Below, one piece after another: positions 8,765-28,126 of a stretch of 45,557 bases of DNA. The notes below the pieces were generated by a model. That model made no database searches. It had not been told where the DNA came from and saw only the letters and a list, made by a program, of their open reading frames with translations. The position numbers and the translations under genes are program-made. The DNA comes from Pleurocapsaceae cyanobacterium CSU_1_1 (GTDB lineage: Bacteria > Cyanobacteriota > Cyanobacteriia > Cyanobacteriales > Xenococcaceae): assembly GCA_012034765.1 (NCBI GenBank), contig JAAUOU010000022.1, forward strand, positions 1-45,557, written 5' to 3'. The number at the start of each line of letters is the position of its first letter. Position 1 is the first letter of the stretch.

Positions 8765-9767
8765 TTATTTAAGTACATTCTTATATTTGATACTAGTTAC
8801 TTTACCCAACTCACTATTAAGCGATTCGTAACCCCATAAAGTAACTAGATCGCGATCAATAAATTCACTAAGAGAAATGACTTCTTGTTTAAAAGCCTGT
8901 TTAAGTTCATTTTTAAATTTAGGGCTAATAGGTTCTGTTGAAGCAAAAATTACATTTTGATTGAGCGATGACATAATTCTTCTTCTGAAATTTTGTTGAG
9001 GAATAATCAACTTGATTAAGAATTTAATAGGTTGCCAGTATTTTTTACCGTGCATAAGATCGAGCAATGATTGTTGCATCCACTTGACTCTTACTTTCAT
9101 TCCTCCTTTATAATGAGTCTTAAATTCTGGAGAAAAATTAAGATCAATGCCTAAAAAAGATAAAATATCTTTATAAATTTGAGCGTTATTTTGTTTCCAA
9201 TCATCGTAAATAATTAACTTTATTTGTTCTCTTTTAAAAATTTCATAAAATCGATTTATTTGTTTTAAATATTTAATTCTTTCTGAATAAAAAAGCAGCT
9301 CGGGTAATAAGCATTTTGAAGGTAAATTTTTGCCTTTTTTTCTTTCTGGTTCTAACTCAAAAGCCTTTTGAAAATTCTTGACTGTTTCTGCTGTAGCTAT
9401 ATGACTTTTTAAGATTTGTAAATGATATGATTGTAAAAATCAATTGGTTCTCGCAATATAATAATAATTTTAGCTTCAGGATTAAACATATGAATTTCCT
9501 TTGCTGCAACCTCAGAATATAAGTAGTTAGTACTAGCTTCTCCACATATCTGATTTTTTTAGCCTCATTAAAAAGAGTATAATATTCTTGTTTATTCATA
9601 GGATAATAAACAGTTTGTTGGTTGGGAACGCGACATAAGTCTTTAGCAAAGTAATGAGGCTCTTTACATTTAGGCATAAAAATAGATGGATGTTCTTTCA
9701 AAAAATTATATAGAGCAGTTGTTCCACTTTTAGGATTTCCAACAATAAAAAAACTAGGTTTGTTCAT
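8765..9767 (-). CDS. PAPS-dependent sulfotransferase, at least two frameshifts
   Basis: Starting at the ATG at 9767 the protein reads MNKPSFFIVGNPKSGTTALY, containing the PAPS loop NPKSGTT, then HPSIFMPKCKEPHYFAKDL. A break near 9557 (in a run of seven T) and another near 9435 separate this from IIIILREPIDFLQSYHLQ, the 3'-phosphate segment, and from the open frame 9360-8765. That last part continues through KYLKQINRFYEIFKREQIK and YDDWKQNNAQIYKDILSFLG, which is the usual sulfotransferase C-terminal pattern. The full length is about 333 residues, normal for the family. I prefer the ATG at 9767 over the one at 9806 because it places the first beta strand correctly. Confidence 0.72.
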
Positions 9768-20757: not shown

Positions 20758-21225
20758 ATGAATATGGTTTTAAATGCGATCGCTTCCTCGAACAAGATTT
20801 ATCAGGTTGCGATACTATTGCCTCGACTACTCACCAAAGCGATCGCCAAGCCGAAGTATACTCTACTTTGTCTGTGGGCATTCAAGCAACTATGGTGGGT
20901 AGATAGTCGGCTCAAAGATATGGCTTTAGAAGCTTTAAAAGTTCCTGCCGATCCACAACCAGTTAGTTTAAACTCAGAACTAACCAAAGAAATTAGGCAA
21001 AGGGCGATCGCGATCGCTTGGACAGCCAAAATTCATCCCCTTCGTCCTAAATGTTTACATCGTTCCTTAGTTTTGTATAAATGGTTACAAGAACAGGGAA
21101 TTAATGCTCAACTGGAGATTGGCTGGGGCGAAAATATCGGTCATGCTTGGGTTACTTACGACGGCAAAGTGCTAAATGACCGCACAGATATTGCCAGTAT
21201 TACTCCACGTTTAATGAAAGTCTAA
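20758..21225 (+). CDS. Lasso peptide leader peptidase B2 (McjB C-terminal-like)
   Basis: This 155-residue protein matches the transglutaminase-like cysteine protease that removes lasso leader peptides. The catalytic triad is visible: Cys99 in RPKCLHRSLVLYKWL, His129 in IGHAWVTYDG and Asp141 in VLNDR. The N-terminal 60 residues are helical with WAFKQLWWVDSRLKD, as in stand-alone B2 proteins. The recognition domain is absent and is encoded separately downstream, the split B1/B2 arrangement. It acts with the cyclase on the precursor in the cytosol. Confidence 0.88.
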   Translation: MNMVLNAIASSNKIYQVAILLPRLLTKAIAKPKYTLLCLWAFKQLWWVDSRLKDMALEALKVPADPQPVSLNSELTKEIRQRAIAIAWTAKIHPLRPKCLHRSLVLYKWLQEQGINAQLEIGWGENIGHAWVTYDGKVLNDRTDIASITPRLMKV

Positions 21226-21442: not shown

Positions 21443-21751
21443 ATGAGCATTAAAATTACTACAAATCAATCTAAAACTTATAAAATATCCCAAAACCATC
21501 TGTATTCAGAAGTTGCTGATGAGGCAGTTATTCTCGACCTAGAATCGGGAGTCTATTATGGCCTTAATTCAGTTGGAGTTGATATTTGGCAGTGGCTGCA
21601 ACAACCACAAACAGAAGAAAAATTACTAGATTTAGTCTTAGAAGAATATGAGGTAACTCCAGAACAAGCAGAGCAAGATCTTCAATCAATATTGAAAGAA
21701 ATGCTGAAAGTGGGATTACTTGAAGTAAGCGAAGAAGAAATTCTCAATTAA
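21443..21751 (+). CDS. Lasso peptide recognition protein B1 (PqqD-like RRE)
   Basis: This 102-residue PqqD-fold protein has the winged-helix pattern DEAVILDLESGVYYGLNSVG, VDIWQWLQQPQTEEKLLDLV and a C-terminal helix. Such RiPP recognition elements bind the leader peptide and deliver it to B2. An AAGGAG Shine-Dalgarno sequence lies only two bases before the ATG, closer than usual. The 217-base gap before it may contain a second promoter. The cyclase follows 50 bases downstream. Confidence 0.88.
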   Translation: MSIKITTNQSKTYKISQNHLYSEVADEAVILDLESGVYYGLNSVGVDIWQWLQQPQTEEKLLDLVLEEYEVTPEQAEQDLQSILKEMLKVGLLEVSEEEILN

Positions 21752-21801: not shown

Positions 21802-23947
21802 ATGAGCGGAATTTTTGGTGTTTATTATTTTGATGGTCAGTCAGCAAAGCCAGAAGTTTTACAACAGATGTCAGACACTCTAGCTCATCGTGGTTCAGAT
21901 GGATCAGATATCTGGTATCAAGATAACCTGGGTTTGGGTCATCGTCTACTTTGGACTACTCCTGAATCATTACTGGAAAAGCAACCATTAGCTGATGATT
22001 ATGGAAACTGCGTAATTACTGCTGATGCCAGAATTGACAACCGCGACGAGCTTATCTCTCGTTTAGATTTAAAAGGTTTAGATGCTGGAAAACTCACCGA
22101 TGTTGAGATTATATTGGAAGCCTATCATAAGTGGGGAGAGAAATGTCCCCAAGAACTACTAGGTGATTTTGCTTTTGTTATATGGGATGGACGCAAACAG
22201 CAACTTTTTTGCGCTAGAGATCATTTTGGAATTAAACCTTTTTGCTATTACCATCAACCAAATAGGGCTTTTTATTTTTGCTTCTGAAATCAAAGCCATA
22301 ATTAGATTACCCCATGTTCCTTTAAAACTCAACGAAATTAGAATCGGAGATTATTTAACTTCTACTTTAGAGGATCGAAGCATCACCTCATATCAAGATA
22401 TTTGGCGGCTTCCTGCTGCACATACTCTAACTATCAACAGACAAGGAACACTTACCCTACATCGCTATTGGGAACTTGGTATTAGGGAGGAAATAAAACT
22501 GAATTCTAATCAAGAGTACGCTGAAGCATTTCTAGAGATATTTACTGAAGCGGTTAGATGTCGTTTGCGAAGTGCTTATCCTATCGGTTCTCATCTCAGT
22601 GGTGGTTTAGATTCTTCTTCGGTTACTTGTATCGCCAGAAATTTATTGAAGAAGCAAAACAAGCAACTCCATACTTTTTCTAACATTTATGATGCAGTTC
22701 CAGAATGTAACGAACGTAATTATATTGAAACAGTGATTGCTCAAGGAGACGTTATCCCCCATTTTGTGCATCCCGACCAAACAGGACCTTTAACCGAATG
22801 GCAAGAGTTTTTTAAATATTCTGACGAATCAGCTATTGGTAATTGCTATCTAGTTTGGGGATTAAACCGCGCTACCAAAGAAGCTGGGGTACGTATTAGT
22901 TTAAATGGTTTTGATGGCGATAGCACCGTTTCCCATGGAGTTTACTATTTAAACGAATTAGCTAGAGCAGGAAAATGGAAAGCCTTTTTAGCCGAAGGAA
23001 CAGCCTTAGCTAAAAACTTTAATGAGTCATCTACTAAGCTTTTACGTCATTATGGATTGTCTATTCTAAAAGAACTAGCACGAAAAGGAAAATGGTTGGC
23101 TTTTTGGCAAGCTGTTAATCAAATTAGTGAAGCTATTGAAATTCCCCATCGCCAACTTTGGCTTAACTATGGGTTCAAAGCAATAGTTTCCGATGGAATT
23201 AAAAAGAAGTTGCGTTATTTCAATCGACCTAAACGCACTCCATCTAATCCTTTTCCTTTAGTCAGTCCTGATTTTGCTCAACGTATTGGATTGAGCAAGC
23301 GCGTACAATCTTTTGATTGTTCTAAAGATCCACCATTGACACAAAAAGAACATCATTGGCGCGAATTAACTTCAGGATTATTTTCGATTCCTTTAGAGGG
23401 ATTAGATACTTATGCTGCTGCTTTTGGAATTGAATCTCGTCATCCTTTTATGGATAAAAGATTGATTGAATTCTGTTTGGCTTTACCAGCAGAACAAAAA
23501 TTAAACCAAGGTTGGTCGAGGATGATTTTACGCAGGGCTATGAATGGTATTCTTCCCACTGAAATTCAATGGCGAGGGGATAAAACTGATATAACTCCAG
23601 GAATGATTAAAGGTTTGTTGGAGTATGACCAGGAAATTTTAAAAGAAGCAATGGTAATTCAATCAAAAAATATTGCTGAATTTGTTAATATTTCTAGTTT
23701 AAAAACAGTTTATCAAAATTCACTTAATCAAGGAAAAATTACAGAAAATGACATTACTAAAATTTGGAGTAGTGTTTCTTTATCTTTATGGCTAAATAAT
23801 ATGTATTCATATTTTTTATACAAAAATATGAATAAAATAAGCATTTTAAAACAAATAATGATATATTGTAATTTCACCCTTTTATTTTATAAGGAGGATA
23901 CGAGTGAAATCACAATATTCAATTCCAAAGCTAATAAATTACGGTAA
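21802..23947 (+). CDS. Lasso peptide cyclase C (asparagine-synthetase-like), one frameshift
   Basis: The N-terminus MSGIFGVYYF resembles the glutaminase domain of asparagine synthetase, but Ser replaces the catalytic Cys2 of MCGIFG. Glutamine hydrolysis is therefore impossible, as expected for a macrolactam-forming cyclase. The ATP-binding motif SHLSGGLDSSSV (near residue 265) activates the Asp/Glu side chain of the core. The frame breaks near 22265: the first frame ends YHQPNRAFYFCF and the second continues IGLFIFASEIKAIIRLPHVP. The full protein has about 715 residues. The C-terminal end overlaps the precursor gene by 44 bases. It is clearly not a housekeeping synthetase given its neighbours. 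Confidence 0.85.
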
Positions 23948-24062
23948 TGTTGAAACCATTACACAAGCAACAGGTAGCACGCCAACCAAGGATTCTATTA
24001 TTTTTAACGGAGCTGCTCTAGGTGTCGAAACTGATGGTTCTAACGACATTAATCTTCCCTAA
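23904..24062 (+). CDS. Lasso peptide precursor A (52 residues)
   Basis: A GTG start at 23904 lies six bases after a perfect AAGGAGG (23891-23897). The leader contains YSIPKLINYG, a match to the YxxPxL motif that B1 proteins bind, followed by NVETITQATGSTPTKD. The most likely core starts at Gly36: GAALGVETDGSNDINLP (17 residues), with Glu7 and Asp9 placed for a 7- or 9-residue macrolactam ring to Gly1. A shorter core from Gly40 is possible. The usual Thr at leader position -2 is absent; Phe is there. The order B2-B1-C-A and a terminator 43 bases downstream support the call. Confidence 0.85.
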   Translation: MKSQYSIPKLINYGNVETITQATGSTPTKDSIIFNGAALGVETDGSNDINLP

Positions 24063-24170: not shown

Positions 24171-25036
24171 ATGTATTTTTCTACTGCTTATGGATTAGTT
24201 ATAAATTCAGAAATATCTTTGATATCATCAATTTCTAGCTCTTGTAATCCAGATCTAATTGTGAGACTTGAAAATCTAAAAAACTATAAAATAAATAGTC
24301 CTAAACCAAAGTGTTTTTTGTTAGGTAACCTTCTAGGAGTAGGACGATTTTAATCAAAAATGGTCGAGAAATAATTGTCGATCCAGAAAAAGGTATAAAC
24401 GAAGATGTGTTGCGCCCTTGTATTTTAGGTTCGGCAATGGTGGTGCTACTACAACAAAGAGGATTTTTGGTTTTACATGCTAGTTGTGTAGTAGTAGAAG
24501 ATGAGGCAATTGCCTTTCTAGGTTACTCTGGTTCAGGCAAATCAACCATCGCTTCAGCATTTCATCGCGAAGGATACGGTATTTTGACCGAAGATGTAAT
24601 GGCGATTGACACTAAGGTCGATCCTTATCTAGTTATTCCCTCTTTTCCGAGTATCAAATTAAGAGCGGATTCTGCTGAAGCTTTAGGGTACGATCAGGGA
24701 ATTCTATCTCCTCTACATCCTTTAACTCAAAAGAAAGTACATCACTTAGACCATGGGTTTGTAAATAAATCCTATCCTCTGAAAAGGATCTATATCCTAG
24801 CCCAGGGCGATCGCAACGAAATAACTCCTCTTTCTCCTAAAACTGCTTTCATAGAATTAGTTCGTCATACCCGTGCAGTTCATACTTTAAAACATCAGGA
24901 ATTAGAACAAGTTCATTTTCAACAGTGCGCTACCTTGGTCAATAATATACCTATCTTTAAATTAGAGCGCAAATTTGTACTATCAGAACTTCCAGGGTTA
25001 GTAAAGTCCATCAAAGAAGACCTCAAGCAAACGTGA
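24171..25036 (+). CDS. HPr-kinase-like lasso tailoring kinase, one frameshift
   Basis: The C-terminal frame holds the HPr kinase/phosphorylase-type P-loop FLGYSGSGKSTIASAFHR with downstream ILTEDVMAID, placing ATP-binding and acidic residues as in this family. The N-terminal frame (MYFSTAYGLVINSEISLISS) joins it when one T is added in TTTT near 24350: GRFLIKNGREIIVDPEKG. The whole has about 288 residues, typical of lasso-cluster kinases such as PadeK, which phosphorylate the C-terminal Ser of paeninodin. Here the predicted core ends in Pro, so the acceptor (Ser11 or Thr8) is uncertain. Confidence 0.8.
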
Positions 25037-25060: not shown

Positions 25061-26878
25061 ATGAAAGTCAGTCAAACTATTAGAAATAAACTTAAAGTTG
25101 CAATTCGCTTTCTACCTGCCTTGCGCTTAGTTTGGCAAAGCAGCCCTGGTTGGACAATTGCTCGGCTAGTTTTAGTCGTAGTTCAAGGATTGATACCTCT
25201 GGCGTTGATTTATCTAGCTAAACTAATTATCGATACAGTAACTATCAACCTCAAAGCCAGTAATCCTGAGCAAGTTTTCGCTCAAGTTTTACCCCTAATT
25301 ATCCTGGCAGGAGTCGCTACAATTATCGATAGCTTCTGCCAATCCTTAAATGAGCTAGTAAATACCGCTCATGCTCAAAAAGTAACTGACTATATGCAGG
25401 GTATTATTCATGCCAAATCAATAGAGGCAGACCTAGAATACTATGAAAATGCCAAATATCACGACGCTCTCCAAAGAGCGCAGCAAGAAGCTCCCTATCG
25501 ACCACCTCAAATATTAACTCGTTTGGCTCAGTTAGTGCAAAATTTCATCTCCTTAATCGCCATGGTGGGATTGTTAGTATCTCTGCATTGGGGGATTATT
25601 GGTGTTTTGTTGGTGGCAACTATTCCAGCCGTCTTTGTCCGAATGGAATATTCTCGGACTATGTATAGTTGGCAGCGTAAACGTACTCAACTAGAAAGGC
25701 AATCGATATATTTGGGGTGGATGTTAACCAACGAACAGTTTGCTAAGGAAGTTCGCCTCTTCAATTTAGGTAATTGGTTTAGTGATCAGTATGACAAAAT
25801 TAGAAGCAAGCTTTACCAAGAAAAATTAGGAATTTCGATTAAACGTTCCACTACCTTTTTTTTAGCTCAAGCTTTTGCAGGCATTATTATCTTCATAGTT
25901 TTTGGTTTAATTATTTATCAAACTATTCAAGGAGTTTTATTACTCGGTGATTTAGTTCTCTATTATCAGGCTTTGCAACGGGGTCAGAATAACTTAAAAG
26001 CAACCTTAACTAGCGTATCTGGTCTTTATGAAGATAATTTGTTTCTGGCAAATCTTTATGAGTTTTTAGATTTAAAACCAAGAGTAGTTGAACCAGAATA
26101 TCCAAAAGTTCTTCCTCTAATCCTGCAACAAGGGATCACATTTAATAATGTTAGTTTTCAATACACTGACTCTGCTCGTCAAGCTTTAAAAAATATTAAT
26201 TTAACAATCAAGCCTGGCGAAACGATCGCCTTAGTAGGAGAAAATGGTTCTGGTAAGACAACTCTAATAAAATTGCTTTGCCGTCTGTACGATCCTACTA
26301 GCGGTAAGATCACTATTGATGGTGTAGATTTACGCTTATTCAAAATAGCCGACTTGCGTCATCAAATTAGCGTTATTTTTCAAGATTACGCTAAATACCA
26401 TTTTTCCGCTGAAGAAAACATTCGTTTGGGGAATATTGAGATTGAGTCAAAAGATCCAAATATTCTTGCTGCTGCGATACGTTCTGGCGCTCATGATGTG
26501 ATTACAAAATTGCCTCATGGTTATGACACTATTTTGGGCAAACTGTTTGATACTGGTGAAGAATTAAGCATTGGACAATGGCAAAAAGTCGCTCTTGCCA
26601 GAGCATTTTTACGAGACTCGAAAGTTATTGTTTTAGATGAACCTACGAGCGCGATGGATCCTAAAGCTGAATACGAAATTTTTAAAAAGTTTCGCGAGTT
26701 AATTAAAGATCAAGCTGCGGTATTAATTACCCATCGTTTGTCTACCGTCAAAATGGCAGACCGCATTTATGTGATGGATGGTGGACAAATTGTGGAAAGT
26801 GGTACTCATGATGAGTTGATCAAACTGCAAAAAAGCTATGCCCATTTATTTGAAACTCAAGCCCAAAATTATCGTTAA
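25061..26878 (+). CDS. Lasso peptide ABC exporter D
   Basis: The intact 605-residue half-transporter has a six-helix membrane domain (for example VLVVVQGLIPLALIYLAKLI and GIIIFIVFGLIIYQTIQGVL). An ATPase domain follows: Walker A GENGSGKTTLIKLL near residue 393, signature ELSIGQWQKVALARAFL, Walker B VIVLDEPTSAMD and H-loop ITHRLSTVKMAD. It lies 24 bases after the kinase and 8 bases before the nucleotidyltransferase gene. In lasso clusters this protein exports the mature peptide and often confers self-immunity. The substrate here is inferred from context. Confidence 0.88.
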   Translation: MKVSQTIRNKLKVAIRFLPALRLVWQSSPGWTIARLVLVVVQGLIPLALIYLAKLIIDTVTINLKASNPEQVFAQVLPLIILAGVATIIDSFCQSLNELVNTAHAQKVTDYMQGIIHAKSIEADLEYYENAKYHDALQRAQQEAPYRPPQILTRLAQLVQNFISLIAMVGLLVSLHWGIIGVLLVATIPAVFVRMEYSRTMYSWQRKRTQLERQSIYLGWMLTNEQFAKEVRLFNLGNWFSDQYDKIRSKLYQEKLGISIKRSTTFFLAQAFAGIIIFIVFGLIIYQTIQGVLLLGDLVLYYQALQRGQNNLKATLTSVSGLYEDNLFLANLYEFLDLKPRVVEPEYPKVLPLILQQGITFNNVSFQYTDSARQALKNINLTIKPGETIALVGENGSGKTTLIKLLCRLYDPTSGKITIDGVDLRLFKIADLRHQISVIFQDYAKYHFSAEENIRLGNIEIESKDPNILAAAIRSGAHDVITKLPHGYDTILGKLFDTGEELSIGQWQKVALARAFLRDSKVIVLDEPTSAMDPKAEYEIFKKFRELIKDQAAVLITHRLSTVKMADRIYVMDGGQIVESGTHDELIKLQKSYAHLFETQAQNYR

Positions 26879-26886
26879 TAAAAATA

Positions 26887-28126
26887 ATGACCACGACTTT
26901 AACAAAAACTGATATTAATTCACCTTTAATAGTCAATAAACCAGAAATTCAACTACTTCTAAGTTGCGCTCGTACTCAAGTAGATGAGCGAACTCAAGTT
27001 AAAATTAAAAATTTAGTCGAACAAGAAATTGATTGGGATTATCTTATCTCAATAGCTAGACGACATGGATTAATTCCCTTATTGTTTTACAACCTCAATA
27101 AACTATGTCGTGAAGCCGTTCCTCAACCTATATTTTCAGATCTAGAGCAGTATTTTAAAATTCATACCAGACGCAGTTTAATGTTAACCAATGAATTATT
27201 ACAAATATTAGATATATTTAAAGCCAATAATATCCAAGCTATTCCTTTTAAAGGTCCTACGCTAGCAATTTCTGCCTATAAAAGTTTGGCTCTCAGACAG
27301 TTTTGCGATCTAGATATATTGATTGATAAAAAAGATACAATGCATTGTCTAGAATTACTGACTTCAATTGGTTATTCTGTACCAAAGTTTATAGATGAAA
27401 TAGAACAAAAACCATACATTAAAAAATCATTTATTTTTAGAATCAGATACCTGTCAAAAAGGATACGATCTTATTCACGAAATCAAGAATATTGCTATTG
27501 ATTTACAGTGGTCATTAACTGAAAAACGTAAGTCAAAATACTTTCCAATTGATTTATATAACTTAAAAAATAATCTAACTTATATAAATATTGGAGGAAG
27601 AAAAATATCTCAATTATCTAACGAAGACATGTTTTTATTTCTTTGTTTTCATGGTTCTAAACATTGTTGGCAATCTTTGAGATGGATTTGTGATGTTGCT
27701 GAATTTATACAAGCTCATCCTAATCTCGATTGGCAAAAAATTGAGACGCAAGCTACAGAACTAAAATCTCAAACAATGTTGTGGCTGACTCTTTTTTTAG
27801 TTTCAGATTTATTAGCAACGCCTTTACCCAATGATTTATTATTAAAGATGCAAACTAAGCATCGAGCTTATCTTCTAGCACAAAAAGTTTATGAACTAAT
27901 TTTTAGCAGAAATTTTACTCAGGGGGAAGATTATCTATTTATATTTAGGATTACAGATAGTTGGCAAGGCAAATATCTGTTTGTGACAAGTTTATTATTT
28001 ACTCCTACAGGAAAAGAGTGGAAATTTTTTAAATTGCCAAATTCTCTTACTTTTTTATATTACTTTATTCGACCTTTCCGATTAATAAAAGAATATTTGG
28101 GAGCATCTCATTTTTCAGTTAAGTAA
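26887..28126 (+). CDS. Lasso-cluster nucleotidyltransferase-family protein, one frameshift
   Basis: The N-terminal part has IPFKGPTLAISAYKSLALRQ followed by FCDLDILIDKKD, the DxD motif of the uncharacterised nucleotidyltransferase family (NTP_transf_5-like). The frame breaks near 27435 in an A/T-rich stretch, and the next frame reads FLESDTCQKGYDLIHEIKN and EDMFLFLCFHGSKHCWQS, then runs to 28126. Full length is about 412 residues. Members in Firmicutes lasso clusters (PadeN, PsmN) act after the kinase; PsmN was reported to add hexoses to the phosphorylated pseudomycoidin. The same role here is inference. Confidence 0.78.

Follow-up and report, generated by a model that had tools for sequence, protein, structure and literature searches.

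By its sequence, the open reading frame at positions 23904 to 24062 (plus strand) of the window, the 45,557-nucleotide stretch of Pleurocapsaceae cyanobacterium CSU_1_1 that was analysed here, is the gene of a lasso peptide precursor and a member of the known lasso_cyano family. We assign a probability of roughly 0.83 to the reading that it is a class II lasso precursor, which B1, B2 and the cyclase would convert to a peptide with an Ala1-Asp9 ring and a threaded tail of 22 residues, to be tailored and exported. The leader most likely comprises residues 1 to 21, and the core is then ATGSTPTKDSIIFNGAALGVETDGSNDINLP, the 31 residues after Gln21. This corrected boundary alters the whole predicted product, which had been given as 17 residues with another ring. 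For genome mining in cyanobacteria it offers a simple test, a Thr at −2 followed by an Asp at core position 9 or 8.

The reading frame starts with GTG, has 52 codons followed by TAA and encodes VKSQYSIPKLINYGNVETITQATGSTPTKDSIIFNGAALGVETDGSNDINLP. A Shine-Dalgarno sequence, AAGGAGG, was read at 23891 to 23897 (+), 6 bases upstream of the GTG. The initial annotation, which had proposed a GTG-started gene of 52 codons with a Shine-Dalgarno sequence at this place, was therefore right about the gene. An HMM search for lasso precursors at the locus, which it had suggested as a check, gave a match to the NF033528 (lasso_cyano) profile with 51.3 bits (E 8.4e-14) against a curated cut-off of 33, spanning the precursor residues 1 to 35. 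This score rules out a chance reading frame and, together with the lasso genes in the neighbourhood, supports the proposed identity as a lasso precursor; YSIPKL is present as the YxxPxL leader motif, as had been stated. In the Pfam profile search, no family matched the precursor at E≤1. The precursor was the sole NF033528 match in the source genome at E≤0.01, which rules out a second precursor at this threshold; a protein search of the genome returned one extra weak hit (E 1.16) within a 480-codon open frame. An annotation based on NCBIfam should name this reading frame.

Counting the source genome itself, NF033528 was matched at E≤0.01 in 23 of 386 genomes of the phylum (10 above the cut-off) and in 7 of the 27 genomes of the family (5 above the cut-off). 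The cyclase profile NF033535 was found at E≤1e-100 in 20/386 and 9/27 genomes, respectively. A homologous short reading frame, which had been expected in related clusters if the gene was real, occurs in the same-genus genome G402. There, the precursor MKTKYSTPKLTAYGNIDTVTQARGPSPVQDSIIVNGTTLGIPTDGSGDVTINT is encoded immediately 3' of a cyclase gene whose product is 85% identical to the second part of the window cyclase over the aligned stretch. An identical precursor is common to locus L106 and the same-genus genome G404.

The genes around the precursor (A) are all on the plus strand and follow the order B2-B1-C-A-K-D-N. The leader protease B2 (20758 to 21225) matches NF033537 with 47.4 bits and PF13471 with 46.7 bits and has Cys99 and His129, which are kept in both homologues that were aligned at the chosen threshold. 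B1 (21443 to 21751) is a PqqD-like, leader-binding protein (RRE; PF05402, 70.2 bits). B2 precedes B1 in the window and likewise in G402 (L155); among the loci listed, B1 comes first in all 71 other loci in which the two genes lie close together. The asparagine-synthetase-like cyclase C is encoded in two parts that both match NF033535. The first (21802 to 22287) covers the profile positions 1 to 159 and ends at a frame break near 22275, and the second (22163 to 23947, with homology from 22268) covers the positions 155 to 667 with 664 bits and contains the ATP loop SGGLDSS. Downstream of the precursor, an HPr-kinase-like protein is split into an N-terminal part (24171 to 24353), recognised by eye in comparison with the kinases of relatives, and a P-loop part (24407 to 25036), with a frame break near 24345. 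The N-terminal part alone had no Pfam match, and the P-loop part matches TIGR04352 with 39.8 bits, below the cut-off of 200. The ABC exporter D (25061 to 26878; PF00005, 119.5 bits) is followed by a nucleotidyltransferase N in two parts, 26887 to 27501 (PF14907, 114.5 bits) and 27629 to 28126 (PF14907, 58.4 bits), with a frame break near 27440.

Frame breaks thus affect three genes of the cluster, those for the cyclase, the kinase and the nucleotidyltransferase. Six places with frame breaks were found in the window by script, and the kinase and a peroxiredoxin added two by eye; frame shifts break many genes of this assembly, and the places listed for the window are 9400-9600, 11300, 17100 and 28517. 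The broken frames would fit a decaying cluster that has no product in this strain and has kept the precursor as a relic, a reading that is compatible with the leader and core register given above. However, rpoC2 of the source genome (G000 C116) is also split across two frames, SMC is apparently split, and the peroxiredoxin in the window is broken as well, so that the breaks resemble base-calling errors. Moreover, gyrA is whole, and the precursor frame agrees with its relatives to the very end, sharing the final residues ITLP with L101, L093 and L079. Because rpoC2 is broken too, the breaks in the cluster are probably assembly errors. From the three genes outside the window and the peroxiredoxin we infer that the cyclase break is probably such an error and not a proof of decay, and we regard decay of the cluster as rather unlikely.

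The leader/core boundary was examined in related loci, taken as the best 80 among the matches listed when genome contigs were searched with an alignment of 15 cyclases. A reading frame matching the leader was found on the cyclase strand in 72 of these 80 loci. Among the loci listed, it follows the cyclase gene in cyanobacteria and precedes it in Mesorhizobium. For the core count, short reading frames from all loci retrieved at that stage were anchored on the leader pattern, which gave 153 distinct frames. Of these, 129 had a Thr at the anchor, and the 24 others, all noise by eye, were excluded. A further 14 were dropped, 13 on contigs with no strong cyclase hit and one as noise, and among the 115 remaining, 3 duplicated the core of another, leaving 112 distinct cores. 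The set includes one copy cut by the locus end (L044). The pattern demanded 15 to 70 residues past the anchor, so shorter precursors such as those of L016 and L064 lie outside the count, as does the Cyanocohniella precursor L087, where Arg replaces the Leu of the search pattern.

When the leader ends after ITQ at residue 21 (23904 to 23966, +), the YxxPxL motif occupies −17 to −12, with Tyr at −17, Pro at −14 and Leu at −12, and the last two residues are Thr (−2) and Gln (−1). The residues Y5, P8, L10, T20 and D30 of the window precursor then all fit the register of the family. The Tyr of the motif (or Trp, Phe or His) stood at −17 in 112/112 precursors, although the pattern allowed about −14 to −19. 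The Thr at −2, which is T20 in the window, is present in all counted relatives, but its invariance is no independent count because it had served as a selection criterion.

Among the 112 distinct cores, 88 have an Asp at position 9 and none has a Glu there; 10 further cores have Asp at position 8. With L044 left aside, the numbers are 87/111 and 10/111. When each core was shuffled 2000 times, acidic residues at position 9 averaged 12.1 with a maximum of 25. An acidic residue anywhere at positions 7 to 9 was seen in 100/112 cores, compared to a shuffled mean of 32.9 and a maximum of 52; the window core has Asp9. Because the sequences are related, the cores were also clustered at 60% identity. 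Among the 57 clusters, 42 had Asp at 9, 4 had Asp at 8 and 11 had neither, whereas 5000 shuffles gave Asp9 in a mean of 4.7 and at most 14. T20 and D30 belong to the 6 invariant columns of an alignment that supports the leader and ring only and from which the tails of L101, L097 and L079 were left out. The same-genus core of G402, ARGPSPVQDSIIVNGTTLGIPTDGSGDVTINT, likewise has both the Thr at −2 and Asp9. We conclude that the ring is likely formed between Ala1 and Asp9 as ATGSTPTKD (23967 to 23993, +), with the remaining 22 residues (23994 to 24059, +) as the predicted tail. The calculated [M+H]+ of this cyclised core is 3057.50 ([M+3H]3+ 1019.84), and each phosphate would add 79.97; the 17-residue core of the initial annotation gives 1624.78.

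Fourteen of the 112 cores have an Asp at neither position 8 nor 9, among them four with Asp at 10 and two with Glu at 7 or 8. In one subgroup of precursors (L020, L021, L039, L054, L113, L114, L120 and L122), Trp replaces the Tyr of the leader motif, the leader often ends with TEQ and a cyclase homologue adjoins. These have no acidic residue at core positions 7 to 9; an Asp is found 10 to 15 residues past the expected cleavage site, in most cases within a G(S/A/F)xD-like sequence. A second group (L014, L017, L018, L019 and L022) consists of small, mostly paired reading frames whose leader, KISGLTQ, resembles that of lasso precursors. A VGGSGGF-like sequence comes next in most of them, and the ends are rich in Thr and Pro. 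NF033535 was matched at E≤1e-100 in just one of the five genomes concerned, G101, and there on a different contig. In the loci L124 to L154, mostly from Mesorhizobium, the core GGGGSTAIDASFPAHTPIGDLTFS or close variants are widespread; they have Asp9 and a C-terminal Ser, and these loci also hold a kinase homologue.

Two other core starts were weighed and rejected on the core counts of the family. A start at the often-conserved Gly24 would lead to a seven-residue ring between Gly1 and Asp7. Lasso peptides with seven-residue rings exist, and a Gly is found at the matching position in 60 of the 88 Asp9 cores. However, it is absent in the other 28, nine of the 10 Asp8 cores, which keep the Gly, would be left with a ring of six residues, and the Thr would fall at −4. 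We consider this start very improbable.

Least probable is the cut after Asn35 proposed by the initial annotation, with a 17-residue core and a ring between Gly1 and Glu7 or Asp9. By coincidence, residue 35 is also where the NF033528 model stops, and an Asp nine residues from the same Gly is also found in the close relatives G402 and L101. Among the 29 cores that have NG at the matching place, counting that of the window and a truncated copy, an acidic residue stands at 9 in 14, but 11 have none at positions 7 to 9. The first L007 precursor lacks any Asp or Glu beyond this point, so such a ring could not form there. The YxxPxL motif would sit at −31, with no Thr at −2. In G402, Pro replaces the Glu7 of this register and the Asp9 is kept in both registers, so that G402 alone is indecisive between them and the wider family decides. 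The Phe at −2, from which a differing cleavage rule of B2 had been suggested, gives way to Thr once the leader ends at Gln21, and the corrected boundary removes the claim of a new rule. Taken together, the earlier core, ring and cleavage rule are very probably wrong.

With the leader ending at Gln21, we infer the following steps for the cluster. B1 would bind the leader via YxxPxL, and B2 would cleave after Gln21, recognising the Thr at −2. The cyclase would activate Asp9 and link it to the N-terminal amine of Ala1, so that a nine-residue ring is threaded by the tail of 22 residues. Phosphate and sugar would probably be attached by the kinase-like protein and the nucleotidyltransferase, and export of the product would fall to the ABC protein.

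A kinase homologue was present in 74 of the best 80 loci among the matches listed; the six others (L076, L101, L102, L109, L119 and L123) each lie on a fragment no longer than about 10 kb. The Asp pair of the kinase is Glu-Asp in the window (LTEDV) versus TDDV in the kinases of four relatives that were compared. Ser3 (PMC10368454) and the C-terminal Ser (PMC8498205) are described as kinase targets in lasso peptides. Neither of these Ser residues is found in the window core, which has Gly3 and a C-terminal Pro; thus, another residue would be modified or the kinase would be idle. The tail contains a (D)GSxD motif at core positions 23 to 27. In the 82 cores of at least 25 residues, the simple pattern occurred in 49, compared to a mean of 22.9 and a maximum of 37 after shuffling. 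The motif is enriched but not general across these cores.

The same 82 cores, which include the cut-off copy, contained exactly two Cys (33 cores) or none (49 cores), and never one or more than two. If Cys residues occurred independently, 29/82 cores with a single Cys would be expected, a contrast that is inflated by relatedness. This pattern suggests tail disulphides in many relatives, not in the window peptide. The paired Cys residues are found from core position 28 on, as in L004, L011, L089, L094 and L096. Cores with Asp9 are up to 54 residues long in this set. It is conceivable, though doubtful, that the cyanobacterial precursors form a branch with nine-residue rings and very long, often disulphide-bonded tails, in which the kinase and the nucleotidyltransferase modify the Ser of the tail (D)GSxD motif (Ser25 here) and not Ser3 or a C-terminal Ser.

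In the portion of the open-licence literature that was covered, no isolated cyanobacterial lasso peptide was seen, only predicted clusters. The window precursor is like the other NF033528 (lasso_cyano) precursors of Nostocales, Moorena and others in its leader, the Thr at −2, the mostly conserved Asp9, the NF033535 cyclase and the nearby kinase-like gene. It differs in its single precursor copy, the absence of Cys in the tail, the 31-residue core and B2 preceding B1. Pandonodin is a proteobacterial lasso peptide with an exceptionally long tail and a tail disulphide; the window core shares the long tail but, having no Cys, can form no disulphide. According to the lasso review that also names pandonodin (PMC8498205), paeninodin and pseudomycoidin have an HPr-kinase homologue as in the window, and pseudomycoidin a nucleotidyltransferase as well, but their target is the C-terminal Ser and the window core ends in Pro. 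The Bradymonas bsf cluster, as described in PMC10368454, has the gene set of the window cluster (A, B1, B2, C, D, K and N), and Bradymonadales precursors with tested cleavage have YxxPxL at −17 to −12 as in the window; in contrast, bsf has Ile at −2, a Gly1-Asp8 ring and Ser3 as the kinase target, where the window core has Gly. For Cyanocohniella sp. LLY, PMC9332814 gives a predicted cleaved peptide of 36 residues with an N-terminal Gly. This precursor belongs to the same family, and its core differs from that of the window in its Gly start and its tail sequence. Placed in the Thr(−2) register, L087 has 35 residues from Gly and an Asp9, so that the two leader/core boundaries agree within one residue.
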